Source: a virus. Taken from it: a DNA stretch of 64,000 bases. Positions 1,685 through 56,303 of this stretch are shown here, piece by piece; within the stretch, counting starts at the first letter, position 1, and each line of letters opens with the position of its first letter. The translations under genes and the position numbers were made by a program. A model generated the notes under the pieces. It was not told the origin of the DNA and searched no databases. It saw only the letters and a program-made list of their open reading frames with translations. The stretch spans positions 1 through 64,000 of the IMG/VR virus record IMGVR_UViG_3300030329_001736; one strand, given 5' to 3'.

Positions 1685-1699
1685 TAGGAGAAAAAGGTA

Positions 1700-11282: not shown

Positions 11283-11346
11283 GGTCTAATCCCTGTAATT
11301 CAACAACTATTATGTGTTTACAGGGCACAGCAAAATAGGGGTGAAA

Positions 11347-26634: not shown

Positions 26635-26643
26635 CGTCGCTCC

Positions 26644-27750: not shown

Positions 27751-27765
27751 TACCTCCTCTACACA

Positions 27766-27806
27766 GAGGCACCTCAGATTAACTTCTGGGGTGCCTCATT
27801 TTTTAT
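27766..27806 (+). terminator. rho-independent terminator after capsid gene
   Basis: GAGGCACC pairs perfectly with GGTGCCTC, extended by CAG/CTG inside, and ATTTTTTATTT follows. This matches the position of the T7 terminator downstream of gene 10. Confidence 0.9.
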
Positions 27807-27820
27807 TTGAGAGATAATAA

Positions 27821-31768: not shown

Positions 31769-34152
31769 TGGCACCTAGATCAAAGATTGCAGTTCCTGAT
31801 GTCAGGAGAATGCGGAATCTCTTATCCCCTGTAGATACTTATGTTCAGACCAAGCCGCAATACACATCTGATGCGTATGATGATAAATCCAAAGCTTTAG
31901 CGGAGTTGAAGAAAGCTCTCGGTGTCGCTCAGGCAGAAAATAAAGAACAAGAGAAAATCTGGCAGAAGAAGAAAGACAAGGAAGACAAAGCCGCAGCAAC
32001 AAGAGCGGCAATGTTGCAAAAATTAGGCGACGGAAACCTTGATGCTGTATCTGGTGAAAGACTGCACCCAGAACAAAGCGAGTTGTTTCATGATGTTTAC
32101 AACGAGAAACTGGGAAACATACACGCAACAAAATGGCAAAGGTCGCTTTTAGAAAAATATGAAAAAGAAAAAGGTGCGATTTTCGACATTCCGTCTTGGC
32201 TATCGGGTGAAACACAGACCTATCTTAATTCTCTAGGAGAAAACCCTAGTTATATTGCTGGGGCATATCCAATTATTCAACAGGTTTCTGCAAATCTAGT
32301 TTCTAGTCACGTTAAGTATAAACGTGAAGTTAATCATAATAATATGAAAGTGGCTTTGGCTCAGGTTTGGTCAAACGCCTATGGTGACCATACCCGCGAC
32401 CCAGCGAAGGCAATTGAACAAAACTGGAAGGACTTACAAATTGCAATTGTTTATGGCACCACCGGGCAAGATCGCGTAACTCTAAGGAGTGATTTCTTTA
32501 CCCATGCAATTTCCAGTGCAGAATCCATGGACCCTAGCAGAGGAATTCTATTACTTAACGCTTTAAAACAACTTGGCGTCAACAAACAGTATGTTCTTAA
32601 AGAACAGACCCCTGATGGAATTCGTAGCACCCCTACCGGATTGAGTTCAAAAGAGTTGTTAGCCGTAGAAAATGCCATAGATAATCTAGAACAAGAAGAT
32701 CGCAAACAGAGAGACCTTGATAGGGATATTAGAACAAACTTAATAGCCGACAATACAGCTAAAGCAATTGCTGCATTTACGGAGTATAGGTTTCAACTGG
32801 GATCAAAAATCCCAACCCTTGCAGATAAAAGAGCTTGGATTACGAAATACAAGAAAGCCAACAAGCTTGATGTAAACAACTTTGACATTGGTAAATGGGA
32901 ATCGACAGTAGACGCACGGATCAGTAATGATCAAACCGCAATTGAACATCAAGCCAGAGGTCCTCTTATTAGCGATGCTGAAAAAGCTATACGAACTAGC
33001 AAAGCAACGGGAGAAGCGCTGGCGGCGTTCCATGTAACAGGAAGTAATCGTCAAGAAGATGTTGAGAAAGAAGTTACGAAAGTATTAGCTAAGTATCCAC
33101 ACGCAAACCCTGCCGTAATACGCGCCGCGCTTCTAAGGTCTATGTCCGGTACTGGCGTACACGCACAGATTAACAAATTTCAGAAATCTACAGACAAGCT
33201 GTTTAAAGTATTTGGTTATGATTCTATGGGATATTCAACGGCATTGGGAGTATCTATTGCTGCCAATTTTCATTCCGAGTTAGTTGAGATAGAAAAAACA
33301 TTGGAAAATACTCCCGGCATAACGCAGATTAGTTACGGCGGGGAAGTTTATCATACAGATAAAAAAATCGGAATTTTGAACCTTCGGGATGCAATATTAG
33401 AAAGTGTTTTTAAAGAAGCTGTAGAGGACAGTACACACCTACAGACAATATTGAAAGGTCCGAACGATCCAGAAAACAAAGACGACTGGAATTCAGTAGA
33501 TTCAATTAATAAGGTTTCAAAAAAGACAATCTATGAGGTATTGACAAGATACGGAGTCGGTACACCAGTAGTAGAAGAAGAAAAAGCAGCCGACCCAGCC
33601 GCTGAATTATCTGACGCTGCAAAGGTTATATATGAGAGTAAATTAAAAGATCAAATTGCTAAAAACGCCGGAAAACCGGTATTGGATAAGACTAAACGGA
33701 TGCTTGCGTTCGCCGCAGCGAAAGAAGCGGAAAAAGCGTCTTCTAACATACCGTCGAAGCCCAGTGAAAGCCCCTTAAATATTGATTCAGGAATTAACGA
33801 TCTGTTAAAACAATATGGATCAGATAGTGAACGGGAATTCAAATCCACAGCAGGGAGGGGAACTCAAGGTCAACGTCTTACTGCTGAACAAATAGATAAC
33901 TTCCTTGATTTCCTTGTCAAAGTTGGCGCGGCAGGGTTGTACAAATCAGAAGATGTGTTTGACGGAGCGCAAAATAGGCGTGAGAAAGTAGACACTAAGA
34001 AAACAGAGGTTCCTTTAAACACAGAAACACAAAAAGAACTATTCAATAGGTTCTTTGATTTAACCAGAATGGGAATGCGGGCCGCATACTTTGATGCTCT
34101 GTGGAATCAAGTAGAACAAAGATTATTAAATACAGGAATGGGCAATGAGTGA
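31768..34152 (+). CDS. internal virion protein C, T7 gp15-like
   Basis: The protein has 794 residues, starting MAPRSKIAVPDVRRMRNLLS. Predominantly helical, with a charged N-terminal coil (AELKKALGVAQAENKEQEKIW) and no membrane segment. Position between gp14-like and gp16-like genes and length agree with the T7 core protein that crosses the periplasm during DNA ejection. It carries the peptide SESPLNIDSG also seen in two small head-region proteins. It overlaps the next gene by eight bases. Confidence 0.82.
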   Translation: MAPRSKIAVPDVRRMRNLLSPVDTYVQTKPQYTSDAYDDKSKALAELKKALGVAQAENKEQEKIWQKKKDKEDKAAATRAAMLQKLGDGNLDAVSGERLHPEQSELFHDVYNEKLGNIHATKWQRSLLEKYEKEKGAIFDIPSWLSGETQTYLNSLGENPSYIAGAYPIIQQVSANLVSSHVKYKREVNHNNMKVALAQVWSNAYGDHTRDPAKAIEQNWKDLQIAIVYGTTGQDRVTLRSDFFTHAISSAESMDPSRGILLLNALKQLGVNKQYVLKEQTPDGIRSTPTGLSSKELLAVENAIDNLEQEDRKQRDLDRDIRTNLIADNTAKAIAAFTEYRFQLGSKIPTLADKRAWITKYKKANKLDVNNFDIGKWESTVDARISNDQTAIEHQARGPLISDAEKAIRTSKATGEALAAFHVTGSNRQEDVEKEVTKVLAKYPHANPAVIRAALLRSMSGTGVHAQINKFQKSTDKLFKVFGYDSMGYSTALGVSIAANFHSELVEIEKTLENTPGITQISYGGEVYHTDKKIGILNLRDAILESVFKEAVEDSTHLQTILKGPNDPENKDDWNSVDSINKVSKKTIYEVLTRYGVGTPVVEEEKAADPAAELSDAAKVIYESKLKDQIAKNAGKPVLDKTKRMLAFAAAKEAEKASSNIPSKPSESPLNIDSGINDLLKQYGSDSEREFKSTAGRGTQGQRLTAEQIDNFLDFLVKVGAAGLYKSEDVFDGAQNRREKVDTKKTEVPLNTETQKELFNRFFDLTRMGMRAAYFDALWNQVEQRLLNTGMGNE

Positions 34153-38054: not shown

Positions 38055-41000
38055 ATGGCTAATGCATCCCACATTATACAGGCAAGCAGTGTGGATGGGA
38101 CAACGAATACATTCAATATTCCGTTCTCATACATCAGTGAAGATCATCTTGCATTTTATGTAGATAATGTTTTAACAACGGATTCTTCATCTCTCTACAC
38201 CGCCACTGTACTTACAGGTGGGACCACGGTTCAGATTGTTAAGACTTCAGATTCTTCTAATCCTAACAATGTCACAATTAAACTTGAACGTAACACTCCT
38301 ATAAGCACAGCCAGTGTTGTCTTCTCAAATTCCTCTACACTTAAAGCGTCTGATCTAAACACCAGTAATAACCAGTGGCTTTACGCAGCCCAAGAAGCCG
38401 CTGACGATGCTGCTGAAGCCATCCGCCTAGACGCTGCCGGGGTATACGATGCCAATAGTACAAAAATAACAAATGTAACTGACCCCACAGCCGCCCAAGA
38501 CGCTGCGACGAAAAACTATGTGGACACTGCTGGCGACTCTAAGGTCGCGCAGGCCGCCGCCAGTGCAACAAGTGCAGCTAATAGTGCTACAGCAGCGGGG
38601 CAGTACGCCGGAACCCAGAATGTTGATACCTTCAACGGAACTGGGTCACAAACTGCCTTTACTTTGTCTGCTTCCCCTGCAACAGAGAACAACACTCTCG
38701 TTACGATTTCGGGAGTAGTGCAGCACAAAAGCTCGTACTCCCTTAGTGGAAACACGCTAACCTTTTCGTCACCACCAGCGGCAGGAACCGGGAATATTGA
38801 GGTCGTTCACTTATCGCTTTTGTCGATAGCGAATCTTGATGAAGACCTATCCTCTACATCGTCGGCACACGATTCGATCCCTTCGGCTAAAGCTGTAAAG
38901 AGCTATGTGGATACGCAGGTCGATACGGTCGATACGTTGGCTGAGGTGTTAGCGAACGGCAACGGAACCGGCGGCAACGACATTGCTGTTGGTGCGAACG
39001 ACGACATAACTCTGGTTGATGGAGCAAACATTAAGTGGGGAACGGGTGGAGACGGTCTAGGAATCTACCACAATGGCTCGAACAGCTACATCACCGAGAT
39101 TGGTAATGGTACGGGCAACCTGTTTGTACTCGCCACGGACCTGACGCTCGGTGACAAGGGAAATCAACATCATTACGCGCATTTTGTCAGCGGCGGCGAA
39201 GCAAAGCTGTTTTACGACAATGGGTTGTCATTTGAGACGACCAGCGGCGGCGGTAAAGTTTATGGCGACTTACAGATCACTGGGGGCGACATTGAGCTTG
39301 GCAGCAGCAACGATACGACCATCTCGCGGGCGTCCGCTGGCGTCGTAACCATCGAAGGGCAGACTGTTCGCACTGGCACTGTTGGAATCTCGGACGGCGG
39401 AACCGGCGCGACGACTGCGGCTGCGGCAGCGACCGCGCTGGGTGTTGGCGCTGGGTCCAATGTTACATTTCATGGGCTGACAACGACCGGTAACGCAAGC
39501 ATTGATGGCGCGGTCACGGTAAACAACTCCGGTGCAGATGCCGATTTCCGGGTCGAAACATCTGGCAATGCAAACATGCTGTTTGTCGATGGCGGCACCA
39601 ATCGCGTCGGCATAGGCACAGGCTCGCCAAACCAGTTACTCGCTGTCAACGGATCGGATGGCGCGACGAACATGATGTTGCAATCCGGTGGCACTTATCG
39701 GCTCGGATTCTACAACGACTCATCGCAACAGCGTCTCTCAACCTATGGCTCGCCTACTACGGCCCTGACCTTCGCGATCCAAGAAAGCGAAAAGATGCGG
39801 GTTTCGGCTAATGGGAAAATCGCAATCGGCGGCCAGACCGCTGACGGCCCGCTGCACGTTTTTAACGGGTCTGCGGGCAGTGTGACAGCCGCCACGGGCG
39901 CGGAAACAATTGTTGCTGAAGCTGGCGGACATGGGGGGGTGTCTATCCTGACTCCCCAGACCCACACCGGCTACCTCACGTTCGGGTCGCCCACCGCATC
40001 TACTCGCGGTTTTGTCAGTTATGAACACAACAACGACGCTATGGCGATCCAAGTCGCTGGCGGCGAAGCCATGCGGATCAACTCGTCTCGCAACGCGACG
40101 TTTGCCGGGAACGAAATCAAAGTTGGCGACAACAACGCTGCTGGCGGCAACTACGATTCCGTGTTGCACTTGCTCGGAGATTCGTCCAGCGGCTTTAAGT
40201 TAAGCACCAACAGCGGCAACAGCGCCTTCAATATTGAGCGCGAATATTACGGCTGGCAAGGCGGGCTGACGATGAAACGCGACACGGGAAATATCGGAAT
40301 TGGCTGTTCCGACCCCGGTGCGGAGCTTGAAATTGCTGGGGATTATCAACCGCTTATCGTCAATAGCACGAACAGTAGCATCCCCAAGATTGTCCTTGAA
40401 GACAATGGCTCGGCGCGAGGATATTTAGGAGCCGGTTCGGGGCACCCGCTCGTCGTCAGTGCCAGTAACGGATCAAACAAATATTTCTTCAGCGATTTGA
40501 ACGGACACAGCTACTTCCAGATTGCCGCCAGCAGCACAGCGGGTAGCGGCGCTGGGGGTGCCTACATCAAAGCGACAGGCAGTGCCGCTTCTGGACCGCC
40601 ACAGATAGCTGGCATTGACTTGTCGATGACGGACGGAACCGATGGCAGTGAGAGCGGAATCATTGCTTTCCACACGACGAATAGTGGTACTTCCTCCGAG
40701 AAAGTTAGGATAACGTCATCGGGGCTAGTCGGTTTGGGAGTAGCGGCACCAACCGAGGAGCTACACATTAAAGCGTCGGCTCCCACGATCAGGCTGGAAG
40801 ATTCCGACAACAATCTATCTGGCTACATCAATGGGGATAATGGAAATGTCCTCATCCAAAGTTACAACGCAAACCGAGATATTATTTTCGGCGAAAACGC
40901 TGCCGGTGGTGAGATCATGCGCGTCACTGGGCTGGGGTCCGTCGGGATTGGCACTTCGGCACCCGGCGCAGAACTTGAAATTGCTGGGGATTATCAACCA

Positions 41001-42182
41001 CTTATCGTTAATTCGACGAACAGCAGTGGTGCCAAAATTGTCTTTGAAGACAACGGTGTGACGAGAGGTTATATCGGCGGCGCGTCTAGCATGCCAGTAA
41101 CATTTTACAACTCTAGTGCCACATTGCTTGGCGGCTTCGACACTAACGGCAGATTTGGAATTGGTACTTCGACGCCAACATCTCCTCTAACTGCCCACGG
41201 ATATACTAGTGGTGTTGGTGTTATCTACGGTAACGCTGGTGCAGCATCACAGCACTTAATAACACTAACAGACGGTGTTGCGACCAACTTTTCTATCGTC
41301 ACTAGTGGTACAGTTCTTACTCTTGGGTCAGATGCTGGAAGCAATCAAACGGCCATAAAATCTTCGGGGGTCGAGGCAATACGGATCGATTCCTCGCAGC
41401 GGGTCGGGATTGGTACTTCGACGCCAGATAGCAATCATAAATTAGAAGTGTACAGCACAGGTACTACCGAAGTAGCAATCCGAAGCGGAAACAGTTCTGA
41501 GGCAATCATTAATTTTGGAGATGTCGCTAGTCGTTTACGAGGTCGAATAGCGTATAACAACAGCAGTGAATACCTAGCTTTTTGGGCTAATGCTGGTGAA
41601 AAGATGCGAATTGATTCATCTGGTAACTTAATCGTAAAACCAGCTAGTTCAAGTCAGACTATCAGCGTTGAAGCGTCGGGCGGCGGCGCAAAAATTGAAA
41701 TGCAAGCTGATGGTGGTACACTCACAACAGTAGGCAGCACGAACAATGTGCCGACTGCTATTCAAGCTAATAGCAGTGAAGCTGTGAGGGTTTTAACGGA
41801 TGGAAAAGTTGGAATTGGCACAACCTCACCTTCAGCAAAACTTGAGGTAAACGGAACAGTATTGGCGTCTACTGACACTGATACAAGTAACACTGGAAGT
41901 GTGACGCTAGACTTTTCTGCTAATCAAAACTTTGTCCTGACTCTCACAGGTAATGTTACACTAGCCAACCCATCCACAGAACAAGTTGGTCAGGCTGGCG
42001 TGATGGTCTTTATTCAAGACGGAACGGGGTCCAGAACCCTGAGTCTCGGATCGGACTACGAGACGGCTGAAGGGGCTGGCATTACGCTTAGCACCGCTGC
42101 TAATGCGGTTGATATTGTTCCGTATTTTGTTAAGGCTTCTGGCTCGATTCAACTCGGCGCACCACAACTGGCGTTTAGTTAA
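38055..42182 (+). CDS. tail fibre, T7 gp17-type N-terminus, 1375 aa
   Basis: Residues about 1-135 (ANASHIIQASSVDGTTNTFN through QWLYAAQEAADDAAEA) match the T7 tail-fibre N-terminal domain that docks to the tail. The rest is a long shaft with VGIGT-x-x-P units and repeated LEIAGDYQPLIVNSTNSS blocks. It ends in a C-terminal domain with NFVLTLTGNVTLANPST and QDGTGSRTLSLGSD. The C-terminal domain resembles that of the phage B fibre at 46954. G+C is higher in the middle (about 38.9-41.1 kb) than at either end, which suggests a mosaic gene. Confidence 0.9.
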   Translation: MANASHIIQASSVDGTTNTFNIPFSYISEDHLAFYVDNVLTTDSSSLYTATVLTGGTTVQIVKTSDSSNPNNVTIKLERNTPISTASVVFSNSSTLKASDLNTSNNQWLYAAQEAADDAAEAIRLDAAGVYDANSTKITNVTDPTAAQDAATKNYVDTAGDSKVAQAAASATSAANSATAAGQYAGTQNVDTFNGTGSQTAFTLSASPATENNTLVTISGVVQHKSSYSLSGNTLTFSSPPAAGTGNIEVVHLSLLSIANLDEDLSSTSSAHDSIPSAKAVKSYVDTQVDTVDTLAEVLANGNGTGGNDIAVGANDDITLVDGANIKWGTGGDGLGIYHNGSNSYITEIGNGTGNLFVLATDLTLGDKGNQHHYAHFVSGGEAKLFYDNGLSFETTSGGGKVYGDLQITGGDIELGSSNDTTISRASAGVVTIEGQTVRTGTVGISDGGTGATTAAAAATALGVGAGSNVTFHGLTTTGNASIDGAVTVNNSGADADFRVETSGNANMLFVDGGTNRVGIGTGSPNQLLAVNGSDGATNMMLQSGGTYRLGFYNDSSQQRLSTYGSPTTALTFAIQESEKMRVSANGKIAIGGQTADGPLHVFNGSAGSVTAATGAETIVAEAGGHGGVSILTPQTHTGYLTFGSPTASTRGFVSYEHNNDAMAIQVAGGEAMRINSSRNATFAGNEIKVGDNNAAGGNYDSVLHLLGDSSSGFKLSTNSGNSAFNIEREYYGWQGGLTMKRDTGNIGIGCSDPGAELEIAGDYQPLIVNSTNSSIPKIVLEDNGSARGYLGAGSGHPLVVSASNGSNKYFFSDLNGHSYFQIAASSTAGSGAGGAYIKATGSAASGPPQIAGIDLSMTDGTDGSESGIIAFHTTNSGTSSEKVRITSSGLVGLGVAAPTEELHIKASAPTIRLEDSDNNLSGYINGDNGNVLIQSYNANRDIIFGENAAGGEIMRVTGLGSVGIGTSAPGAELEIAGDYQPLIVNSTNSSGAKIVFEDNGVTRGYIGGASSMPVTFYNSSATLLGGFDTNGRFGIGTSTPTSPLTAHGYTSGVGVIYGNAGAASQHLITLTDGVATNFSIVTSGTVLTLGSDAGSNQTAIKSSGVEAIRIDSSQRVGIGTSTPDSNHKLEVYSTGTTEVAIRSGNSSEAIINFGDVASRLRGRIAYNNSSEYLAFWANAGEKMRIDSSGNLIVKPASSSQTISVEASGGGAKIEMQADGGTLTTVGSTNNVPTAIQANSSEAVRVLTDGKVGIGTTSPSAKLEVNGTVLASTDTDTSNTGSVTLDFSANQNFVLTLTGNVTLANPSTEQVGQAGVMVFIQDGTGSRTLSLGSDYETAEGAGITLSTAANAVDIVPYFVKASGSIQLGAPQLAFS
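40293..41080 (+). repeat. duplicated shaft module in fibre gene
   Basis: Two copies of a block starting near 40293 and 40943 encode IGIG(C/TS), PGAELEIAGDYQPLIVNST, NSS and IVxEDNG-x-RGY-G. A 25-base core is identical at 40326-40350 and 40974-40998, spaced 648 bases (216 codons) apart, in frame. Confidence 0.85.
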
Positions 42183-43834
42183 TGACGATGTTTGGTTCAC
42201 AATGGTTTGCTAATTCAGGCGGGTTTGATACAGGCTTGATTAGCAACTCGGTATGGTTAGATGAATCCGACTATCTGAGTCGCTCGACCAGTAGTTTTAG
42301 TAGCAATGAATTTATAATGGCATGCTGGTTTAGAATTATGGAACCGCTAGGTACTGGCGGCTACGCTATAGAGCCGCTAATGAGCATTGGAAATAACTCT
42401 GCTTCGGGCGTTGGAAACGTGGCAATGAATTTTGAAGGCGGTATGGCTTATTTCTCATGTGATGGCTATGCCGTAAAATCTTCTGCGAACATGATTAGAG
42501 ACATTGGTTGGTATCATATACTTGCAAGTTATAAAATTAACGAATCAACGGCAAGCAACAAAGGTAAGTTTTTTCTTAATGGTGTAGAAATTACTAGTTT
42601 TTCGGCAGACCAGCGTAGTTATTGGGGTACGTCTTTTAACAATACAAGTAAACAACTCGTTGGTGCTTCATTTGCGTGGACCGGAAAAACCTATATTGCA
42701 CAGCCGGTAATGCTTGATGGGCAATCAATTCAAGGCGGCGATGTTTCTATATCTGATTTTGTAGATACAGAAACTTTTGCGCCAAACGATGCTCAGACTA
42801 TTCCTAAATCAGACGCAGATATAGCTGCGCTTGCGTCATCTGCTGGAGGAAATAGTTTTTGCTTAGACTTTTCTGATAGCTCTAATCTTGGAAACGATCT
42901 AAGCAGCAATAACAGTGATTTAACTACGACAAGTATGACAGCAGCGAATCAGTCTGCTAACACGCCCAGTAAAGTTTATCCAATTTGGAATCCGTTAGAA
43001 CCGACGAACTCGACCATTACCTTGACTGAAGGTAATTTGCGAGCAGCGGGTTCGGGTGGTTCCGATGGCGGTGCAATTGGAACAATGCCGTTGCCGACGA
43101 CCGGCACATCAGAATTTCAGATAAAAACAAATAATGGTCAAGGAAGAGTTGGCATCATTGCTCATGCTGGCGCTGTCGCTGTTGATGAAGTGTCGAACAA
43201 TTGCGCTGCAGGCGCTGGATATAATTTTAATGCGGCATACCATTATGCTGAAAATGGAAGCATAAGACAAATACTCTCTTCTGGTAGTAGTGATGCACAA
43301 ACAGGTATTGGCTCATGGTCAACAAATGATGTGATTACAGTGCGATATAATGCCGATGACAACGAATTGAGTTTTCTAAAAAATAACAGTGCTGTGGGAA
43401 GTGCAGTTTCCACTGTTTCGGGACTAGTCTACTATCCAGTTGTCTGTCGTTGGAACAACTATGACATAACTGCATATTTTGATTCTTCTGATTTTCCGCA
43501 CACAATAGGTACGGGAAATAAAGAAGTTAATAGTGCTAATCTAACAACAGAAACATTTTCAAATCCAGCAACAGGTTCGTTTAAAGGTAACGCAAGTACG
43601 GCTGGTCCGCTTATCTTTTTGGGATTCAAACCGTCGCCAGACGATGCGCTTACTATTAACGGCAATAGCGTTACTTACGGCACAGACGTTAGACTTACCT
43701 CCGATGGATTCAAAGTTATAAGCAGCAGTTCAAATTTTAACACAACCAGTGGAACAAACAGTTATTCAATTGTGACAGCAAACGCATTGCAAATTAACGG
43801 AAAATTTCCACCAGCAATTGCTGAGACAAGCTAG
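42182..43834 (+). CDS. concanavalin A-like (LamG/SPRY) tail protein
   Basis: The protein has 550 residues. The N-terminal half (MACWFRIMEPLGTGGYAIEPLMSIG, YHILASYKINESTASNKGKFFLNGVEIT) is a LamG-like lectin domain. LDFSDSSNLGNDLSSNNSDL is a motif common in marine phage tail lectins, and the second half is a SPRY-like domain. It probably binds surface glycans. It starts on the fibre stop (TTAATGACG). Composition is more AT-rich than the fibre middle. Confidence 0.75.
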   Translation: MTMFGSQWFANSGGFDTGLISNSVWLDESDYLSRSTSSFSSNEFIMACWFRIMEPLGTGGYAIEPLMSIGNNSASGVGNVAMNFEGGMAYFSCDGYAVKSSANMIRDIGWYHILASYKINESTASNKGKFFLNGVEITSFSADQRSYWGTSFNNTSKQLVGASFAWTGKTYIAQPVMLDGQSIQGGDVSISDFVDTETFAPNDAQTIPKSDADIAALASSAGGNSFCLDFSDSSNLGNDLSSNNSDLTTTSMTAANQSANTPSKVYPIWNPLEPTNSTITLTEGNLRAAGSGGSDGGAIGTMPLPTTGTSEFQIKTNNGQGRVGIIAHAGAVAVDEVSNNCAAGAGYNFNAAYHYAENGSIRQILSSGSSDAQTGIGSWSTNDVITVRYNADDNELSFLKNNSAVGSAVSTVSGLVYYPVVCRWNNYDITAYFDSSDFPHTIGTGNKEVNSANLTTETFSNPATGSFKGNASTAGPLIFLGFKPSPDDALTINGNSVTYGTDVRLTSDGFKVISSSSNFNTTSGTNSYSIVTANALQINGKFPPAIAETS

Positions 43835-43846
43835 GAGAATAAAATA

Positions 43847-44350
43847 ATGTGGAAATATAACGGGAAAACAATTAATGAGCGGAAGTCTTGGGTTGATGAT
43901 AATGGTATTCAGCATCCTTCTAATTGGCATATCTGGTCGCCATCAGATAAAGCTGCCGCCGGTCTGGTAGAGGTTGTCGAAGACACACCACCAGATAGCC
44001 GCTTGTACAATTGGACTATGGATACAAATGGAAAGATAGATAAGACTCCTAGAAATTTAGAGGATGTTAAAGTAAATCTAAAACGAGAAGTTAAGGACCA
44101 TCAAGGTGCTTTACTTACTCAAACGGATTGGGCAGTCGTTCGCAAAGCTGACAACGGTACAGCTATTCCTTCCGATATCCAAACTTGGAGAGATGCTATT
44201 CGCACTAAAGCAACCGAGATGGAAAATGCGATTGATGGTGCAGAGAATACAGATGCTGTAGCTGCGCTGTTTGTGTCTTACACAACTAACGAAGACGGCA
44301 GTGTAACGCAGTCGGGCATCCTTTACGATTGGCCTGAATTAGAAAGTTAA
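43847..44350 (+). CDS. tail accessory protein, DUF4376-like
   Basis: The protein has 167 residues. An N-terminal domain (WKYNGKTINERKSWVDDNGIQHPSNW) is followed by a helical C-terminal part with LLTQTDWAVVRKADNGTAIPSDIQTWRDAIR. TDWxVxRxxD-x-x-x-PxDIxxWR is typical of the helical domain in phage tail fibre assembly proteins. AGGAGAATAAAATA precedes the ATG. It is likely a fibre accessory factor for the lectin-like protein. Confidence 0.75.
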   Translation: MWKYNGKTINERKSWVDDNGIQHPSNWHIWSPSDKAAAGLVEVVEDTPPDSRLYNWTMDTNGKIDKTPRNLEDVKVNLKREVKDHQGALLTQTDWAVVRKADNGTAIPSDIQTWRDAIRTKATEMENAIDGAENTDAVAALFVSYTTNEDGSVTQSGILYDWPELES

Positions 44351-44402
44351 ATGTTTACAAACTGGTACAAAGATTTAAATAATACAAGAAAGGAATTAAA
44401 TT

Positions 44403-44732
44403 ATGGCTGCTACAATTGAATGGCTAGTAGAAGCATTAGATTGTTATCCTACAAAAGATAGCAAGACTGATGTTGTTATGATGGTTCATTGGCGTTGCAA
44501 TGGGTCTGAAGAGAATGATAGTAAAACCTATCACTCAACTTCTTATAGTACGGTTGGCGTAACCTATGAAGATGGTGATGCTTTTACTCCCTTCGCAGAT
44601 TTAACTAAGGATCAAGTTCTTGGTTGGGTCTGGGAAAGTGTAGATAAGAATGAAACTGAAGCTAGTATACAAAAAAGTATTGACAATCAAATTAATCCTC
44701 CTATAATTCAACCTGACCTACCGTGGTCTTAA
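44403..44732 (+). CDS. small tail-region protein, DUF7936-like (second copy)
   Basis: The protein has 109 residues, equal in length to the product of 1355-1684 and similar in order of motifs (VMMVHWRC, FADLTKDQVLGWVWE, final LPWS). Its DNA is far more AT-rich than the first copy, so the two are diverged homologues and not a recent duplication. AAGAAAGGAATTAAAT precedes the ATG. Role unknown. Confidence 0.7.
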   Translation: MAATIEWLVEALDCYPTKDSKTDVVMMVHWRCNGSEENDSKTYHSTSYSTVGVTYEDGDAFTPFADLTKDQVLGWVWESVDKNETEASIQKSIDNQINPPIIQPDLPWS

Positions 44733-44755
44733 TAAAATAAAAGGAGAAATAAATA

Positions 44756-45016
44756 ATGACTCAAGAAGAAAACAATAATAATATCATTAATATTAATGGG
44801 ACTGATTATTCTCAAGATGATCTTAGTAAAGAGCAGCAATACATGATTGCTCAAGTCAAGGACTTGCAAATAAAAGCAGCCCAGACCAAGTTTCAGCTTG
44901 ATCAAATCCAAGTATCACTAGATCATTTTACTAATAAGGTAATTGAAAGTATTGAAGATAAGGGACAAGATTCTGACCCTTCTGAGATTATTCAACGGAA
45001 ACAATTGGTGAATTAA
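44756..45016 (+). CDS. DUF6447-like small protein
   Basis: The protein has 86 residues. NIINING-x-DYSQDDLSKEQQ followed by a helix of about 40 residues (IAQVKDLQIKAAQTKFQLDQ) matches the pattern of DUF6447 proteins found in marine phage tail regions. The N-terminus is Asn-rich. AAAAGGAGAAATAAATA supplies a ribosome binding site. Function is unknown. From here on the DNA is uniformly AT-rich. Confidence 0.65.
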   Translation: MTQEENNNNIININGTDYSQDDLSKEQQYMIAQVKDLQIKAAQTKFQLDQIQVSLDHFTNKVIESIEDKGQDSDPSEIIQRKQLVN

Positions 45017-45025
45017 TAGTTAGCT

Positions 45026-45709
45026 ATGGCTTTTGGCAGTATTATATTATTAGGAGCAGGTTCTGCAGGATCAACAGGGTTAGACCTTGTAATCTCTTCT
45101 AATACAACAGATTATAATGTTTTGACTGCAGCAACCGCTGCTGGTTACGATAATTCATTAGGAGATAATGTTACTATTACAGTAACTATCAACTCTGGTG
45201 TTAATGTAACTGCAACTGGAGGAGGCGGAACTGCATTTACTACTGGTGCTTTGAATGCCAATACTACACTTAGTATTATTAATAACGGTAATATTACTGG
45301 GAGTAATGGTGGCACAGGCAGTAACGGAGGTAATGGTGGTTCTGGTGGTAAAGGTGTTTTCTTTAATACTGTTACTGGTGGATCAGCTACACACAGTTTA
45401 GAAAATAACGGCGTTATCGCTGGAGGTGGAGGTGGCGGTGGTAGTGGTGGACATAAGCGAACATGCTATTCAGACGGCGACGGAGGCCACGAATGTAATG
45501 ATCCAGTTGCAATAGGTGCTGCTGGCACTGTTGGAGCTTTAGGACAAAGTGGCACAGCCGGTGCTAATCCTCCTGCTCAAGGTCTTTGTGATTGTAGTCT
45601 AAGTCCTGCCCGTGGTCTTGGCGGTGCTGGTGGTTATTCTATAGATAAGAATGGTCGTACAGTTACTCAAACTGGTTCAGGAACCTATGTTGGAACACAA
45701 AAACCATGA
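45026..45709 (+). CDS. glycine-rich adhesin-like protein
   Basis: The protein has 227 residues. A beta-rich N-terminal part (LDLVISSNTTDYNVLTAATA) leads into repeated glycine runs (GGTGSNGGNGGSGGKG, GGGGGGSGG), with a Cys-containing insert (KRTCYSDGDGGHECND and LCDCSLS). Glycine-rich sandwiches of this kind form host-recognition tips in T4-like gp38 adhesins, which suggests receptor binding. The stop overlaps the next ATG by four bases, so it is coupled to the QueC-like gene. Confidence 0.65.
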   Translation: MAFGSIILLGAGSAGSTGLDLVISSNTTDYNVLTAATAAGYDNSLGDNVTITVTINSGVNVTATGGGGTAFTTGALNANTTLSIINNGNITGSNGGTGSNGGNGGSGGKGVFFNTVTGGSATHSLENNGVIAGGGGGGGSGGHKRTCYSDGDGGHECNDPVAIGAAGTVGALGQSGTAGANPPAQGLCDCSLSPARGLGGAGGYSIDKNGRTVTQTGSGTYVGTQKP

Positions 45710-46545
45710 GAGTATTAGTACCGTATAGTGGTCTAGGAACCAATAGTACTTATGGACTGTATCGCTGGTTAACAGAAACAGACTATGAAGTAGTAGCTAT
45801 GTTTTTAGATATATATTATTCTTCAGATGAATATACTGCTTTTGAAAGAGAACATTTTCACAGAGGAGTTAAATGGTTTAAAGATAATATAAGAGATTTT
45901 GAAACTATAGAAAGAAAATGTGAACAAGTATATTCTGATACTTATGAGCCAGTCAGAGAAAATTTTACTTTGAATGTGAAAACCGGTTCTTATAAAAATA
46001 TGAGAAAGGTTTATATAGATACTGCTAAAGAATATAAAGTTGATTTTTTAAGTAGTGGTAAGTCAGGAGAAGACACAAATGTTTCTTTGAACAAATCTGT
46101 TAGTATTTCAAAAGGATCAGATTATGATTATATTCATCCTTCTTGGTCTTTAACAGAACCAGTTACTTTAGAGAATAGAGATCAAGCAATAAAAGAAATG
46201 TCTGCTAAATGGAGTCAACGAGAAAAGTTACCACAAGAACTAAGAAATATTATTACTGATTGCACTTGTAAAGGTGATGGAGGAATATGTTATTTTTGCA
46301 CAGACTTACTTTTAAATGAAGTTCGTCCAGAAACAGGACAAGAGCTTGATGATGTTATACTAGAAAAATTATGTGCAGGAAAATTTAGACACTTAGCTGA
46401 TCCAAAAACTTTTAGACTAGACCAGCGAACAGTTACATATTTTAAGTTATTAGGTTATAACGAAGAACAATGGCTTGATCCAGTTACAAGAAAAGAATAC
46501 AAGGAAAAAGTTAAAGATATGTATGCAAAAGCAGGAAACATATGA
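45706..46545 (+). CDS. QueC-like PP-loop protein
   Basis: The protein has 279 residues. MRVLVPYSGLGTNSTYGLYRW has a PP-loop ATP-pyrophosphatase-like P-loop (residues 7-15; canonical SGGxDS is here SGLGTNS). VDFLSSGKSGEDTN lies around 112-125, and a Cys cluster C186-x-C188-x6-C195-x2-C198 resembles the zinc site of 7-cyano-7-deazaguanine synthase (QueC). Such enzymes make preQ0 for DNA or tRNA modification. No other deazaguanine genes (FolE, QueD, QueE or a DNA transferase) are visible in the window, so a different PP-loop reaction is possible. Confidence 0.6.
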   Translation: MRVLVPYSGLGTNSTYGLYRWLTETDYEVVAMFLDIYYSSDEYTAFEREHFHRGVKWFKDNIRDFETIERKCEQVYSDTYEPVRENFTLNVKTGSYKNMRKVYIDTAKEYKVDFLSSGKSGEDTNVSLNKSVSISKGSDYDYIHPSWSLTEPVTLENRDQAIKEMSAKWSQREKLPQELRNIITDCTCKGDGGICYFCTDLLLNEVRPETGQELDDVILEKLCAGKFRHLADPKTFRLDQRTVTYFKLLGYNEEQWLDPVTRKEYKEKVKDMYAKAGNI

Positions 46546-46940
46546 TAAAGAAAATATTATTCTTAGTAACTTTTTTAAGTTCTATTTTATTTTTTTCTAC
46601 GAATGTTAATGCTGAAGATAAAAAAGATAAGGAAATATATTGGCAGATTGGAGATGCAGTACTAACCATTATGGTTTGTAGAACTGAGGAAGATATTTTA
46701 GAAATAGGTTATGCTGATAGTCAATCTGCATTAAAACTAAATCAGTTAATTCAAATTAAAATTATGCAAAATAGTTGTCTAGTCTTTAATCCTCCTTTAC
46801 AATTAGAAGTATCTAAGATTGTAGGAGACTACAAAGATTATAACGGAAATAATACAACAATGGTTGGTGTTTCTCCTATACAGGAACCAGATAATATCTT
46901 AGGTTATTTAATAATATTAGGTAAACCTTTAACAATTTAG
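46542..46940 (+). CDS. small secreted protein
   Basis: The protein has 132 residues. MIKKILFLVTFLSSILFFST followed by NVNAED is a textbook signal peptide with AxA-like cleavage at about residue 25. The mature part has two Cys residues (VCRTEED, NSCLVFN). It overlaps the QueC-like gene (ATGA). Its function is unknown; periplasmic or virion export is possible. It has no clear similarity to the exported protein of phage A at 2709. Confidence 0.6.
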   Translation: MIKKILFLVTFLSSILFFSTNVNAEDKKDKEIYWQIGDAVLTIMVCRTEEDILEIGYADSQSALKLNQLIQIKIMQNSCLVFNPPLQLEVSKIVGDYKDYNGNNTTMVGVSPIQEPDNILGYLIILGKPLTI

Positions 46941-46953
46941 TAAGGGATGAAAA

Positions 46954-47880
46954 ATGGCGAGTACTTATACTTCTAGAATTAGATTAGAAAAGCAGGGAGA
47001 TGGAGAGAATCCTAATACTTGGGGTTTACGTCTTAATCAGAATGTTATTGATTTGCTTGATGAAGCTGTAGCTGCATACGTTACTGTTTCTGTATCTAAT
47101 GCTAATGTAACTCTATCTGCTAATAATGGAACTACTGATCAGTCTAGGTCACCTTTTATTGAACTACAAGGAGAGGTAACTTCTAATCTTAATGTTATTG
47201 TTCCTAGTGTAGATAAGGGTTATACAATTAATGATAAAACAACTAGAAATCCAGCAGGAAGCACAGTTACACTAAAGACTGCTACAGGAACAGGAACTGA
47301 AGTTAAGGTAGGAAGAATTGCTCAGTTTGTATGTGATAGTGTTTCTGTTCATCCAGTAGAAGGATACACAAGTGTAAGTGATGTATATGCAGGAACTAAT
47401 AATACCTTTACTGGTACAAATACTTTTAGTGGTTTAGCTAGTTTTACTAGTGCTACATCGTTTAACACTAGTGTTTCAGTAAAAGATTTAAGAATTACTG
47501 AAGGGCGCATAGAAGATGTTAGTGTTTCTGTTGCTTCTATAGTACACGCAAGTGTTACCAGAGGTATTATGCCTTTTACTTCTCTTACTGATGGTGCAAC
47601 TATTACAATAGACTTTAATACAGGAAATAACTTTTGTGTGACATTAGGAGGTAACAGAACTTTAGCTAACCAAACTAATGGTACAGTAGGACAAACAGGG
47701 TATATTTACGTTAAACAAGATGGAACAGGAGGTAGAACTTTAACCTTTGGTAACTGGTGGAAATTTAGCGGAGGAGAGACGCCTGAACTAACAAGTGTTG
47801 CAAATTCTGTTGATATGCTTGTTTATAATATACGAGAGACAGAAAAAGTAGATACTGTTTTTATAGCTGATTTTAAATAG
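46954..47880 (+). CDS. phage B tail fibre
   Basis: The protein has 308 residues. TYTSRIRLEKQGDGENPNTWGLRLNQNVIDLLDEAVA is a typical N-terminal virion attachment segment. The C-terminal domain (ITIDFNTGNNFCVTLGGNRTLANQTNGTVGQTGYIYVKQDGTGGRTLTFG) is homologous to the end of the phage A fibre (38055-42182). It probably forms a trimeric fibre. AAGGGATGAAAA precedes the ATG. Confidence 0.8.
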   Translation: MASTYTSRIRLEKQGDGENPNTWGLRLNQNVIDLLDEAVAAYVTVSVSNANVTLSANNGTTDQSRSPFIELQGEVTSNLNVIVPSVDKGYTINDKTTRNPAGSTVTLKTATGTGTEVKVGRIAQFVCDSVSVHPVEGYTSVSDVYAGTNNTFTGTNTFSGLASFTSATSFNTSVSVKDLRITEGRIEDVSVSVASIVHASVTRGIMPFTSLTDGATITIDFNTGNNFCVTLGGNRTLANQTNGTVGQTGYIYVKQDGTGGRTLTFGNWWKFSGGETPELTSVANSVDMLVYNIRETEKVDTVFIADFK

Positions 47881-47901
47881 GAATACTAGTAAGGATAACA
47901 C

Positions 47902-49785
47902 ATGTCTTCTACTACTTCCAGATTATCTAAGTTAAATCTTAAACCGGGATTTCACAGAGAATCAACTCAATACTCTGAAGAGGGGCGTTGGTTTGATGGA
48001 GATCGTGTGCGTTTCAGAGAAGGAAAGCCAGAAAATTTAAGAGGCTATAATAAATTTACATTAGATGATAACAGAACACTTGAAGGTATTGGCAGAGATT
48101 TAATAACTTGGTCACGAAATAATTCACAAAAACTTCTTTCTGTAGGAACAGAGAAGAAACTTTATATTGTAGATGGTTCTTTCCCTTATGATGTAACACC
48201 TATTGTTACTGTAGTTTCTATAGGTAATAGTGGAACACAAGGTAATCTTAGTACTGTATCTGGTCAAAATAGAATTTATGTAAGTATTACAAATAATAAT
48301 GTAAGTGTAGGAGATTTTGTAGAATTTACTTCTGCTTCTACTAATGGATTTAGCCAAGGAACAGACTTTGCTGTTACTGCGTTTGGTGGTCCTGTTTATG
48401 AAGTTGTTAATGTTTCAGGTGTAAATAATTTTAGTGTATCTGTTAACTATTCTTCTAATGCAACACAGACAGGACCGGGACAAGCTACTGCACATTTTCT
48501 TTTACCTACTGGATCAAATGATAGTATCCAAGGAACTGGATATGGTGCAGGAAACTATCTTGCAGGAACAAATGATCCTTCTGCAAGAGCATGGAATGAA
48601 CCTGCAGCTACGTCTAATATTGTTTTTGCTGCTTCTCAGTGGTCACTAGATACATTTGGTGAAGATTTGTTAGGTGTTAGAAGAGGAAATAAATTATGTC
48701 ATTGGGATGCAGATGCCAGTGTAACGCCAGTAAGAGCTAATATTATTTCTGGAAGTCCTGATCAAATAAATAGTATTGTTGTATCTCCTAATGATAGGCA
48801 TGTTATTGCATTAGGTGCAAATGAATTTGCTACTGGTACTTTTAATCCTATGCTTATTAGATGGGCAGATCAATTAAATTTTAATAACTGGACTCCTGCT
48901 ATTACTAATACAGCAGGAGAACTGGTTGTAGTAGACGGTACAGAAATCATTGCTGGTATTAGAACCAGAAGCTCTATTCTTATTTGGACAGATAATGCTT
49001 TGTATGGTTTACAATTTGTTGGTCCTCCGTTTACATTTAGTATTCAACAGTTAGGGTCTAATTGTGGACTTATAGGACAACATGGAGCAATAGCTGTAGA
49101 CTCTGCCTCTTTCTGGATGAGCAACGATAACTTCTATGTTTTTGATGGAACTGTAAGAAAATTAGATTGTACTGTTAGAAGACATCTATATGATAATTTT
49201 AATATGACGCAGAAAGATAAAGTTTTTTGTGCTACTAATTCAGAGTTCCACGAAATTATTTGGTTGTATCCTTCAGAAAGTTCTTCTGAACCTGACTCAT
49301 ATATTATCTATAACTATGAGGAAAATACTTGGGTATATGGGTCTAGTTTCTATACTACTTTTTCTGATGATCATGTATTTGATAATACCATTACAACAGG
49401 AAGAGTTAGTGCTTCTGATGATACTCGTATATGGAACAATGAACCTGAGAATATTTTTACTGGAGATGGTAAAGCACTAACTTCTTTCTTAGAATCTGCT
49501 GATTTTGATTTGCAAGATGGTGCAGATATAATGTTTGTTAATAGAGTTATCCCTGATCTTACTTTTGGATCAGGTACTAATTTAACTTTTACTATTAATT
49601 TAAAAGATTATCCTGCTGATTCAACTACGCAAAAAGGACCGTATACTTTAAATTCAGGAATAAAAAAAGTAGATTTAAGAGCTAGAGGAAGACAAGCTAA
49701 TGTTCGTGTCTCTACTTCTGATTTAGGTGCAGAGTGGAGATGGGGTAATGTTAGGGTAGCCTTACAGCCAGATGGTAAACGATAA
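47902..49785 (+). CDS. phage B tail/stabilisation protein
   Basis: The protein has 627 residues. LNLKPGFHRESTQYSEEGRWFDGDRVRFREGKPENLRGY is a conserved opening of large structural proteins in HMO-2011-like podoviruses, related in layout to P22-type tail stabilisation proteins. The middle contains FNNWTPAITNTAGELVV and GIRTRSSILIWTDNALYGLQFVGPPFTFSIQQLG, beta-propeller-like. TAAGGATAACAC precedes the ATG. It likely forms part of the tail hub. Confidence 0.75.
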   Translation: MSSTTSRLSKLNLKPGFHRESTQYSEEGRWFDGDRVRFREGKPENLRGYNKFTLDDNRTLEGIGRDLITWSRNNSQKLLSVGTEKKLYIVDGSFPYDVTPIVTVVSIGNSGTQGNLSTVSGQNRIYVSITNNNVSVGDFVEFTSASTNGFSQGTDFAVTAFGGPVYEVVNVSGVNNFSVSVNYSSNATQTGPGQATAHFLLPTGSNDSIQGTGYGAGNYLAGTNDPSARAWNEPAATSNIVFAASQWSLDTFGEDLLGVRRGNKLCHWDADASVTPVRANIISGSPDQINSIVVSPNDRHVIALGANEFATGTFNPMLIRWADQLNFNNWTPAITNTAGELVVVDGTEIIAGIRTRSSILIWTDNALYGLQFVGPPFTFSIQQLGSNCGLIGQHGAIAVDSASFWMSNDNFYVFDGTVRKLDCTVRRHLYDNFNMTQKDKVFCATNSEFHEIIWLYPSESSSEPDSYIIYNYEENTWVYGSSFYTTFSDDHVFDNTITTGRVSASDDTRIWNNEPENIFTGDGKALTSFLESADFDLQDGADIMFVNRVIPDLTFGSGTNLTFTINLKDYPADSTTQKGPYTLNSGIKKVDLRARGRQANVRVSTSDLGAEWRWGNVRVALQPDGKR

Positions 49786-50057
49786 TGATTTATCCTGAAC
49801 TACCTACATATGGACGAAAAATAGAAGATGAAGAATTAAAGAAAATGTACAGGGATATTACTTCTTGGGCTTCTCAATTAAAAAATCTATTAGAGATCAG
49901 AGATATTCAAGTTGATAGTACTCCTTCTACTACAATTTTTTCTGTAGTTACTGTAACATCTATAGGTAGACCTGCAAGTGGAGATGTAGCTTTCTCTATA
50001 GGCGAAGGAAAATTTAAAGGATATGTTAGCGGAACAGGATGGGTAGACTTTAACTGA
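49785..50057 (+). CDS. small virion-region protein
   Basis: The protein has 90 residues. The stop of the upstream gene and this ATG share bases (TAATG). The N-terminal half is helical (DEELKKMYRDITSWASQLKNLLEIRD), the C-terminal half a small beta domain ending FKGYVSGTGWVDFN, which resembles fibre-cap domains. Function is unknown; it is cotranscribed with the tail genes. Confidence 0.6.
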   Translation: MIYPELPTYGRKIEDEELKKMYRDITSWASQLKNLLEIRDIQVDSTPSTTIFSVVTVTSIGRPASGDVAFSIGEGKFKGYVSGTGWVDFN

Positions 50058-50266
50058 TGGCAATGACACAAAGACAAAAGATTTTGGATATATTATACAA
50101 CAGTACTTATATCCAGAATATGAATAAAGGTTATATAGAAAGCACAGAGGATAAGGGTATGGCGTATCCTAACAATTCGGTGTATAATAACCCCAACACT
50201 TTACATGCAGATATGACTAAATCTCAGTCTAACTATATGAATCCCAAACAAGCAAAGGTAATTTAG
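50057..50266 (+). CDS. 69-aa hypothetical protein
   Basis: The start overlaps the upstream stop (TGATGG). The protein begins MAMTQRQKILDILYNSTYIQ and is rich in Asn, Tyr and Met, with no membrane segment. It ends three bases before the next gene. No family is recognised; position suggests a virion-associated peptide. Confidence 0.55.
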   Translation: MAMTQRQKILDILYNSTYIQNMNKGYIESTEDKGMAYPNNSVYNNPNTLHADMTKSQSNYMNPKQAKVI

Positions 50267-50268
50267 TA

Positions 50269-53200
50269 ATGGCGTATATGGTAAACAGGGACGCTCCTTA
50301 TAGTGGTTTAGCTACTCTTATGAACATGAGAGATAATAATCCAAATACTCAGTTGGCTTATGTACCTACTCGCGATGTAGAGATGCGCTATGACACTATC
50401 TATAACCCGTCTACTGGTATACCTCAAGCAGTAGGTGTTTCTTCCTTCAATGAAGGAGGTGCTATTGGTTTTGCTCCTCCAGTACCAGAAGCAGAATATA
50501 TGGATAAGTTAGGAGAACTACAAAAAGAGTTGTTATCTACTTTACCTCGTCCTGCTAGACCTAATTTTAATGCGCCTTCACCACTAGCAAGGACTCCTAT
50601 GCCTATGTTTGATAGCTCTTATACACCTCCTCAAGGAGGTCGTGGAGCAGGTAAAGGAACTTCTATGCCTCCTATGCCTCCTATGCCTCCTATGCCTCCT
50701 CAAGGAGGTCGTGGAGCAGGTAAGGGACCGGCTGGTCAAACAGGTACAGGACCAGTTATAACAGGATTACCTGATGGTTTGGTCGTAGATAGGTTTCCTC
50801 CTAGTATGCCTAATCCTATTCATCCTGATATGGTAACAGCACAGATTGAACCGAAACTACCTACACCTAGTATGCCTACTCCTGCTACACCTAGTATGCC
50901 TACTACACCTAGTATGCCTACTACTCCTTTACCTGATACAGCTCTGACAGAACTAAACGATTTAAAAAATTTAATTGATAGTAGACATCCTGTTACAACT
51001 CAACCGGCTACTCCTACTATGCCTACTCCTAGTATGCCAAGTTATCCTATACCTACTCTCCATACTCCTAGTATGCCAAGTTATCCTATGCCTACTCTCC
51101 CTAATCAACCACAACCGCAACCGAATAAACCTGTATATGATCAGTATGGTTATGTACAGTCAGGTTACGAAGGTGGATACCGTCCACCAACTAATAATAA
51201 TAACACTAATAATCTTACTGGTCTTACTGGTATTGGTGGTGGTTTAGCAGGTATCATGGGGCATCGCGCTGCTGGTGGTAGTGTAGCTAGTAAAGCTGAT
51301 GAAGTAGCTTCCTATGGTAGATACGGAGATACTACTCTTGTTCATATGACACCAAGAGAAGTAAGTGGTCTAGCTTCTTTAGGTCAACTTACTATTAATC
51401 CTGATACGGGATTACCTGAAGCTTTTAGTCTAGGCAGTATTATGCCTATTGTAGCAAATGTAGCATTAGGTGTTGCGACGGGAGGAATGTCTGTTCCTAT
51501 GCAGATGGCTGTAATGGGCGGTGCTAATCTATTTATGGGTCTGGCTCAAGGACAAGACTTTGGAGATGCTTTACTGGGTGCTGCTCTTAGTGCGGGTAGT
51601 ACTGGAATAATGAGAGGTCTTGGTAGTGGTCTGTTTAGTGGTGCTGCAAGTGGTGGTGCAGATGCTGCTGCTGCTGGTTCTTTAGCTGGTGGTGCAGATG
51701 CTGCTTTAGCAAGTAATGCTGTTCCTACATTTGCAGAAGGTGCTTTAGCTCTTCCGACAGCTACTCAGATAGAGGCAGGAATTCTACCACCGGGATTTGG
51801 GGGTGTTACTGCTGATACTTATTTAGCTGATGCTATTAGTACACATGGAGGTGAACTAGGTGGAGTAGGTCAAGCAATGAGTCCTGTTTCTCCTCCTAAA
51901 TCTCCCTCTTTTTTGTCTAACGTGACAGATTTTATTAAAGATAATCCTGTTAAAACAGGTCTTTTAGGTTTAGGTTTAGGTTCTGCTTTTCTTGGAGGAG
52001 AACCAGAACAACTAGATAATGAGCCAACTATAGCCCCGCGAAAACCTCTTGAATTTACAGGACATGAAGCTAAAGGTCCATTTACAGAACAACAACTGCT
52101 AGACTTAGCTCTTAAAGGAGAAACATTTGATGAAGATGGTGAGCGTATTGATTATGATCTCTTTACTCCCGGTAGGGGTGAAGGTGGACAATGGTACGTT
52201 AGTAAAAATGAAGGTGGTTTAGTTGGAATACCTCAAACTAAACAAAGAAGTAATGTAACTAATTATATGTTTGACAAAAAACAGGGGGCAGTTTCTCCAT
52301 TTAATATCTTTGAAGTAGGTAAGGGTTTAGGAAGTATGGGGAAGAAAAATAATTCTACTCTTATGCAACTAGCTACTGGTGGACAACCAAGATCAAATGT
52401 TGCTGATATGATAAATCCTATGTCAAGACCTGTAGAATTTCCTAGAATGATTTCTCCCTCTGTTTTTAGTTATGATAATTTATTAAAGAGAGCGGCAGAG
52501 AAAGAAGAAGTAGAAGGCTTTGAATCTCCTGATGCTTATCAAAAAAGGCATGAGGAGATACTAGAAAAACTTCTAAAAGATATGAAGAATATTTCTACAA
52601 TACTTCCTGAAGAAAAAGAACCTGTAGTTGCTGCCCCTGAACCTTTGATTGAGGAGCCTGATGATTCTACTTTTGCAGACGGTGATCCTGATCAAGGTAT
52701 GGGTCCACCTTCAGGAGTAGGTGTAGATGCAGCAGCGGCAGCGGCAATGGGTATGGCAGATGATGAAGCAGATGTAGGTGCGGCAGCGGCGGCGGCAGCG
52801 GATGCGGCAGATGCAGCAGCAGCGGAAGCAGACGGGGTAGATGAAGCTTCTAGCGGAGATGAGTGGGCAAAGGGTGGTCTTATTGGTTTAGCTAAAGGTG
52901 GTAAACTAAACTATTATGATGAAGCTTTTGACAGTCTTTATAAGTTAGGTGTTAAATTTCCTGAACTTGAAAGTATGTTAGCAGGAGAAACTGAATCTTC
53001 CCTTCCATTAGAACAAAGATTAAGGAGAGTTAACCCTAAAAGTAAAGCAACAGGTTTATTTCAATTTATACCTAAAACAGCTAAAGACTTAGGAACAACT
53101 ACATCTAAAATTAAAAACATGTCAGCAAAAGAACAAGCTGATCTTTATGCTAAATATTTAAAAAAGTATAAATGGAAGCCGGGAATTCCTCTTGGTATGA

Positions 53201-53862
53201 TGCAAGCTGCACCAAGTATGGCTAACAAACCAGATGATCATATTGTTTACAAGAAGGGAAGCAAAGCATACAAACAAAATCCTAATTGGGTTGGACCTGA
53301 CGGAGAAATCAGGGTAGAAAGCATAAAAAAATACTATGATCCTAACTATAATGTGAAACCTGAAGAAGAATCAGATAGTAGTTCAGGTCTATTAGAAATG
53401 TTGCAAAACTTATTTACAAGTCAAGACGACAATACTATTACTATTAGTAAAGGAGATACTTTATTTGATATATCAAAAGAGTATGGTATACCTTTGCCAG
53501 AGATACTACAAAAGAACCCTAGTATTACAGACCCTAATCTTATTAGGGAAGGACAGGTTATTAACAAATATCAAGGTGGCTCCGTCAACCCTTATTTTGA
53601 AGGACAAGTTATAGGTAAAGGAGATGGTCAGTCTGATCAAATTCTCTTTGAGGTAGAAGGAAAGAATCCTGATATGGCTTTGCTAAGTAGAGATGAGTAC
53701 GTTCTTCCTGCAGATGCAGTAGCTATGCTAGGTAATGGTTCTTCTAATGCAGGTGCAAAAGAGCTTGATCAGTTCGTAAAAAATTTAAGACAGCAATCTT
53801 TCGGAACACAACAACAGCAGAAAAGATTAAATCCCCAGAAAGGATTGTCAGCATTAGTATAG
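50269..53862 (+). CDS. 1197-aa structural protein with lysozyme-like and LysM domains
   Basis: Order: N-terminal part; Pro/Met-rich repeats (PPMPPMPPMPP, TPSMPTTPSMPTTP, SYPIPTLHTPSMPSYPMPTL; about residues 100-280); a hydrophobic Gly/Ala region (about 380-470); acidic Ala runs (about 820-870); a soluble-lytic-type segment with RRVNPKSKATGLFQFIPKTAKDLG (about 918-945); a LysM (TISKGDTLFDISKEYGIP through EGQVI, about 1060-1105); and an end motif LSRDEYVLPADAVAMLGNGSSNAGA shared with HMO-2011-like virion proteins. It probably opens the cell wall during infection. Confidence 0.72.
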   Translation: MAYMVNRDAPYSGLATLMNMRDNNPNTQLAYVPTRDVEMRYDTIYNPSTGIPQAVGVSSFNEGGAIGFAPPVPEAEYMDKLGELQKELLSTLPRPARPNFNAPSPLARTPMPMFDSSYTPPQGGRGAGKGTSMPPMPPMPPMPPQGGRGAGKGPAGQTGTGPVITGLPDGLVVDRFPPSMPNPIHPDMVTAQIEPKLPTPSMPTPATPSMPTTPSMPTTPLPDTALTELNDLKNLIDSRHPVTTQPATPTMPTPSMPSYPIPTLHTPSMPSYPMPTLPNQPQPQPNKPVYDQYGYVQSGYEGGYRPPTNNNNTNNLTGLTGIGGGLAGIMGHRAAGGSVASKADEVASYGRYGDTTLVHMTPREVSGLASLGQLTINPDTGLPEAFSLGSIMPIVANVALGVATGGMSVPMQMAVMGGANLFMGLAQGQDFGDALLGAALSAGSTGIMRGLGSGLFSGAASGGADAAAAGSLAGGADAALASNAVPTFAEGALALPTATQIEAGILPPGFGGVTADTYLADAISTHGGELGGVGQAMSPVSPPKSPSFLSNVTDFIKDNPVKTGLLGLGLGSAFLGGEPEQLDNEPTIAPRKPLEFTGHEAKGPFTEQQLLDLALKGETFDEDGERIDYDLFTPGRGEGGQWYVSKNEGGLVGIPQTKQRSNVTNYMFDKKQGAVSPFNIFEVGKGLGSMGKKNNSTLMQLATGGQPRSNVADMINPMSRPVEFPRMISPSVFSYDNLLKRAAEKEEVEGFESPDAYQKRHEEILEKLLKDMKNISTILPEEKEPVVAAPEPLIEEPDDSTFADGDPDQGMGPPSGVGVDAAAAAAMGMADDEADVGAAAAAAADAADAAAAEADGVDEASSGDEWAKGGLIGLAKGGKLNYYDEAFDSLYKLGVKFPELESMLAGETESSLPLEQRLRRVNPKSKATGLFQFIPKTAKDLGTTTSKIKNMSAKEQADLYAKYLKKYKWKPGIPLGMMQAAPSMANKPDDHIVYKKGSKAYKQNPNWVGPDGEIRVESIKKYYDPNYNVKPEEESDSSSGLLEMLQNLFTSQDDNTITISKGDTLFDISKEYGIPLPEILQKNPSITDPNLIREGQVINKYQGGSVNPYFEGQVIGKGDGQSDQILFEVEGKNPDMALLSRDEYVLPADAVAMLGNGSSNAGAKELDQFVKNLRQQSFGTQQQQKRLNPQKGLSALV

Positions 53863-53863
53863 T

Positions 53864-54295: not shown

Positions 54296-54297
54296 CT

Positions 54298-56295: not shown

Positions 56296-56303
56296 TAGTT
56301 GTA

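Follow-up and report, generated by a model that had tools for sequence, protein, structure and literature searches.

The nearest described relatives of the first part of the DNA analyzed here are the marine Autographiviridae roseophages CRP-118, CRP-403, and CRP-804 (PMC11092137), and the virion genes of its second part are of the kind carried by DSL-LC04 and by HTVC023P-type phages, whose genomes measure 58.8 ± 2.5 kb (PMC9599517). Among contigs of 10 kb or longer in simulated viromes, fewer than 5% are usually chimeric (PMC5610896). The stretch under study (the window, 64,000 nt) comprises bases 1 to 64,000 of the 100,092-bp IMG/VR record IMGVR_UViG_3300030329_001736, and we also read the rest of that record (L002 and L003). 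We conclude, with a probability of roughly 95%, that assembly software fused the circularly permuted genomes of two co-occurring phages into this record, which would make it a chimera and no hybrid virus.

Two phage gene sets on one record

The record holds two full phage gene sets, part 1 at bases 1 to 40,895 and part 2 at 40,896 to 99,995, each with its own terminase, portal, capsid, DNA polymerase, and primase-helicase. The G+C content falls from 0.477 in the former to 0.390 in the latter, and our recount of two sample 60-base lines, at 11881 and 47041, returned the 34 and 20 G+C given in the original prediction. Its reading of two packaging systems on one contig also agreed with the genes found: a TerS and a TerL in part 1, and a TerS of another family on the minus strand of part 2.

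Its predicted genes make part 1 an Autographiviridae phage of ~41 kb that encodes an integrase and is cut open in its tail-fiber gene. The T7-like label that it had been given fits the T7-type single-subunit RNA polymerase (RNAP; 11314–13836; phrog_414, E 5e-205; 41% to the CRP-118 RNAP), the T7-like order of replication and virion genes, and the N-terminal part of the tail fiber (38055–40895), which matches PF03906 (Phage_T7_tail) over residues 1–160 and, at 71% over residues 1–158, the fiber of the T7-like contig G008 (3300045790_000556). These genes and the following ones are on the plus strand. TerS (3844–4059; phrog_891) was 54% to CRP-118 DNA maturase A, and TerL (4037–5845; phrog_38, E 4e-121) was 65% to DNA maturase B of this Roseobacter phage and 87% to G008. 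The portal, scaffold, capsid, and tail tubular A genes (23467–28441) matched CRP-118 gp24, gp25, gp28, and gp29 at 43–63% (portal 63%, capsid 60%) in the same order. A tyrosine integrase (9586–10716; phrog_1, E 9e-36) was 30% to the CRP-118 integrase and, as in that phage, is encoded upstream of the RNAP. Altogether, 24 part 1 proteins matched CRP-118, with the order largely kept, and the length of part 1 (40.9 kb, at 47.7% G+C) compares well with the 41,088 bp of CRP-118. Part 1 is nevertheless distant from the three roseophages in protein sequence, keeps the fiber only at its N-terminus, and has accessory genes of its own. Exact-peptide seeding gave no confirmed relatives for a 1302-aa T7-like virion protein and, as a search that shows close relatives only, no relative of the integrase in 84,980 genomes.

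The record opens inside a reading frame (1–942, plus strand; already open at base 1 and ending in a stop at 942) for the C-terminal end of a tail fiber. We assign this piece to the distal fiber of the T7-like phage by its position, on which the assignment of its domain rests, since similar fiber pieces also occur in phage-2-type contigs; bases 1–123 match 41307–41429 at 71% of nucleotides. T7-like relatives carry TerS/TerL downstream of the fiber, and ~0.3 kb of the T7-like fiber seems to be absent at the contig start.

Part 2, which we class solely from its virion and packaging genes, is a predicted podovirus with a virion module of the HTVC023P/DSL-LC04 type. The capsid (50–56%), portal (40–42%), TerL (38–39%; record 83876–85447, outside the window), and stabilization protein (32–34%) are homologous to those of HTVC027P and DSL-LC04 and keep their order; GroES, an adaptor, and a size of ~59 kb are further likenesses, and the closed loop of 59,100 bp described below falls within the HTVC023P-type size range. 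The replication genes do not follow the HTVC023P type: the part 2 DNA polymerase showed 26% identity over 251 aa to that of HTVC027P, and the closest replication genes were those of HTVC103P/104P (HTVC104P polymerase 48%, primase-helicase 46%). Phage 2 thus has an HTVC103P/104P-like polymerase and primase-helicase at record positions 70432–74570 (in L002) beside an HTVC023P/DSL-LC04-type virion, a mosaic of two pelagiphage groups. The sole tRNA found on the record, a tRNA-Arg(TCT) at 76796–76872 (L002:12796–12872), is also in phage 2.

The original prediction had called the second phage HMO-2011-like, a label that is wrong for part 2 and that we replace by the relatives named above. Likeness to this Puniceispirillum phage amounted to endonuclease I (49%) and a few weak matches, whereas the part 2 capsid, portal, and TerL gave no tblastn match within the initial 50 kb of the HMO-2011 genome, the region holding those genes. 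The DnaJ/CXXCXGXG domain that defines the HMO-2011 type was missing from the polymerase as well: we counted 0 such motifs in the 574-aa part 2 protein and 2 in the HMO-2011 control.

Within the window, phage 2 genes begin with the C-terminal part of its fiber (40993–42182, plus strand, as are the phage 2 genes of this paragraph except TerS). The N-terminal part lies at record positions 97521–100092, and the two pieces form a single open frame of 1,253 aa; 41400–41626 showed 78% identity to the fiber of G001 (IMGVR_UViG_3300037847_001391, 24.9 kb). A 550-aa lectin/SPRY-like virion-associated protein follows (42182–43834; phrog_27411 and phrog_19943, with PF00622 SPRY just under the cut-off), for which exact-peptide seeding gave no confirmed relatives; contig L204 carries a weak homologue flanked by phage-2-type genes. 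The tail-fiber assembly-like protein at 43847–44350 (phrog_4912) has a 69% homologue in contig G006, just upstream of a phage-2-type module. The next block, 44386–51054, is 92.7% identical in nucleotides to G001, where it comes directly after the phage 2 fiber (blastn). It includes a second, short fiber protein (46954–47880), found in the phage-2-type relatives examined, and the stabilization protein (47902–49785; phrog_3287; 34% to DSL-LC04, 32% to HTVC027P, 95% to G001). A lysis/ejection block at 50269–60110 encodes a peptidoglycan-active domain protein, a 143-aa protein, and DNA ejection-like proteins, with endolysin/transglycosylase families at 50269–53862 and a phrog_4287 DNA ejection protein at 54298–56295; the second virion module predicted past 45 kb, with stabilization and ejection proteins, is therefore present. 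Short-unit tandem repeats (TPSMPT-like) that vary among relatives lie at window positions 50602–51100, within the gene for a 1197-aa phage 2 virion protein. The phage 2 TerS is at 60598–61074 on the minus strand (PF03592 Terminase_2, E 1e-15; phrog_51). The end domain of the short fiber protein is homologous to that of the phage 2 fiber (39% over 84 aa, at 41898–42149). Homology between the domains at 41880–42180 and 47590–47870 had been proposed and stands, but both domains belong to phage 2 rather than one to each phage.

A 97-nt exact repeat at the junction

An exact-match scan revealed that bases 40896–40992 are identical to 99996–100092, a repeat of 97 nt (plus strand) whose second copy runs to the last nucleotide of the record; the longest other exact match between the two parts was 19 nt. 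Alignment extended the similarity around this stretch to 81% over 247 nt. The first copy, which marks the join, lies in the middle of the tail-fiber ORF at 38055–42182, with the frame open across it, and both record ends likewise fall within fiber genes, base 1 in the open C-terminus described above and the last base in an ORF that starts at 97,521. Because the 97 nt recur at the contig end, bases 40896–99995 close into a loop of 59,100 bp. The record thus has the shape of a lollipop, with the T7-like genome as the stick entering the circle of the second phage. A comparison of the start of the contig with its end revealed no contig-wide terminal direct repeat. When the 43-nt core of the repeat was used as a query against IMG/VR, in a search that may leave out near-identical records, no near-identical separate contigs of either phage were found, and 38.2–46.1 kb showed no direct DNA similarity to cultured phages.

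The original prediction placed a switch between phages at 41.1–45.1 kb. The change in gene content and composition is real, but the change of genome lies upstream, at 40896–40992. A Markov change-point test on composition pointed to 43,831, within the predicted interval, and the drop itself occupies ~43.8–44.4 kb, downstream of the join. We rejected 43,831 for the join on two grounds. G001, which is one phage of the part 2 kind, shows the same rise in its distal fiber, where G+C reaches 0.46–0.53 over a background of 0.38, and G001 and G006 place the sequences of 41400–44386 with phage 2. Composition falls later than the join since the distal fiber of part 2 is itself G+C-rich, and the 41–45 kb transition is the downstream edge of this fiber cassette, not the join.

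Independent contigs gave each flank of the join a different native neighbor. G001 is colinear with record positions 83.3–98.7 kb, with 97–99% identity at 83292–85642, 87326–94915, and 96563–98723 and some divergent genes between these stretches. It continues through a 1.9-kb fiber, which contains a 10-N scaffold gap, directly into the sequence of 44386–51054 without any T7 genes, indicating that the end of our contig natively adjoins the 41–44 kb region; the distal fiber and lectin region of G001 differ from those of the record. This difference and the scaffold gap count against the chimeric reading, as does the ~0.3 kb of T7-like fiber that seems to be missing at the contig start. In the T7-like contigs G008 and G010 (3300006929_000240, also L012), the order is part 1 virion genes, T7 fiber N-terminus, and TerS/TerL, so that the fiber near 38–41 kb natively adjoins bases 1–5,845.

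A wrong turn by the assembler at the 97-nt stretch is what we infer from this arrangement. With an identical 97 nt common to the fiber genes of the T7-like phage and phage 2, the assembler would exit the T7-like genome at that stretch, enter the other genome, circle it once, and halt on meeting the 97 nt again. The sizes of the two products support this scheme, the loop (59,100 bp) being close to the 58.8-kb HTVC023P-type mean and part 1 (40.9 kb) close to the CRP-118 genome. As in the chimeric contigs of viromes (PMC5610896), two distinct genomes are joined at a locally identical common region; unlike in the usual case, little is missing from either genome and the second forms an entire circle, which is why the artifact left an exact repeat between an internal position and the terminus. 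A second two-genome record, of 106,894 bp (IMGVR_UViG_3300025168_000039; G011/L140), contains two part-2-type phage genomes with two TerL, two capsid, and two portal genes, and a 491-nt repeat of 99.8% identity (33357–33847 and 88081–88571); it is probably a chimeric assembly as well.

Alternative origins of the record

The same two joins would result from a single crossover at the 97-nt stretch, and we therefore considered a real 100-kb cointegrate, formed in a coinfected cell when circular or concatemeric T7-like and HTVC023P-like genomes recombined at this fiber homology. The open ORF across the join is compatible with such a molecule. G001, G008, and G010, however, keep unbroken native neighborhoods of both phage kinds, a 100-kb genome would probably be too large for either head given relatives of ~41 and 58–61 kb, and an assembler yields the same contig with no need for a cointegrate, which we accordingly judge very unlikely. 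If it were true, the record would have caught recombination between phage lineages within a coinfected cell.

The original prediction had offered a hybrid or tandem prophage alongside a chimeric assembly; the 97-nt repeat and the native neighbors in independent contigs bear out the chimera and neither of the other two. That two tandem prophages were joined at attachment sites in a bacterial chromosome might be suspected from the tyrosine integrase in part 1, but the join is within a fiber ORF 30 kb from that gene, both contig ends are in fiber genes, no bacterial gene was recognized among the genes identified on the record, and the integrase search described above, which detects close relatives, returned none; we give this origin almost no credence. 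If a viable hybrid phage had swapped no more than a fiber/accessory cassette and its genome truly changed at 41–45 kb, this would account for fiber and accessory genes common to both phage kinds, such as those shared with L012/G010 (see below). Such a swap would not bring in the whole genome of another phage, terminase, capsid, and replication genes included, and with the native neighbors known from independent contigs we consider it extremely improbable. A chimeric assembly remains our reading of the record.

Possible fiber-module exchange and its implications

The biology that remains is a tail-fiber module common to two otherwise unrelated phages. The phage 2 genes at 45026–45709 and 45706–46545 have distant homologues (30–35%) between the fiber and terminase genes of the T7-like contig L012/G010, which suggests exchange of fiber-side blocks. 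One small gene in each phage, at 3007–3354 and 60127–60498, matched the same gene in the T7-like contigs L009 and L010, and the two are apparently homologous. The 97-nt stretch itself presumably reflects a recent exchange of the fiber module, probably in a common host. It is reasonable to infer exchange in the fiber region between marine podoviruses that share hosts, a kind of event already known.

We recommend splitting the record, since gene-sharing networks, genome-size statistics, and viral taxonomy would all be misled by a 100-kb "hybrid" that has two terminase systems. Its signature is the exact recurrence of an internal stretch at a contig end, with a whole phage genome between the copies; such a pattern is easily scanned for and is not the one sought by the usual terminal-repeat check. 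For the phages themselves, locally identical tail-fiber segments in unrelated marine phages hint that exchange takes place in hosts they share.
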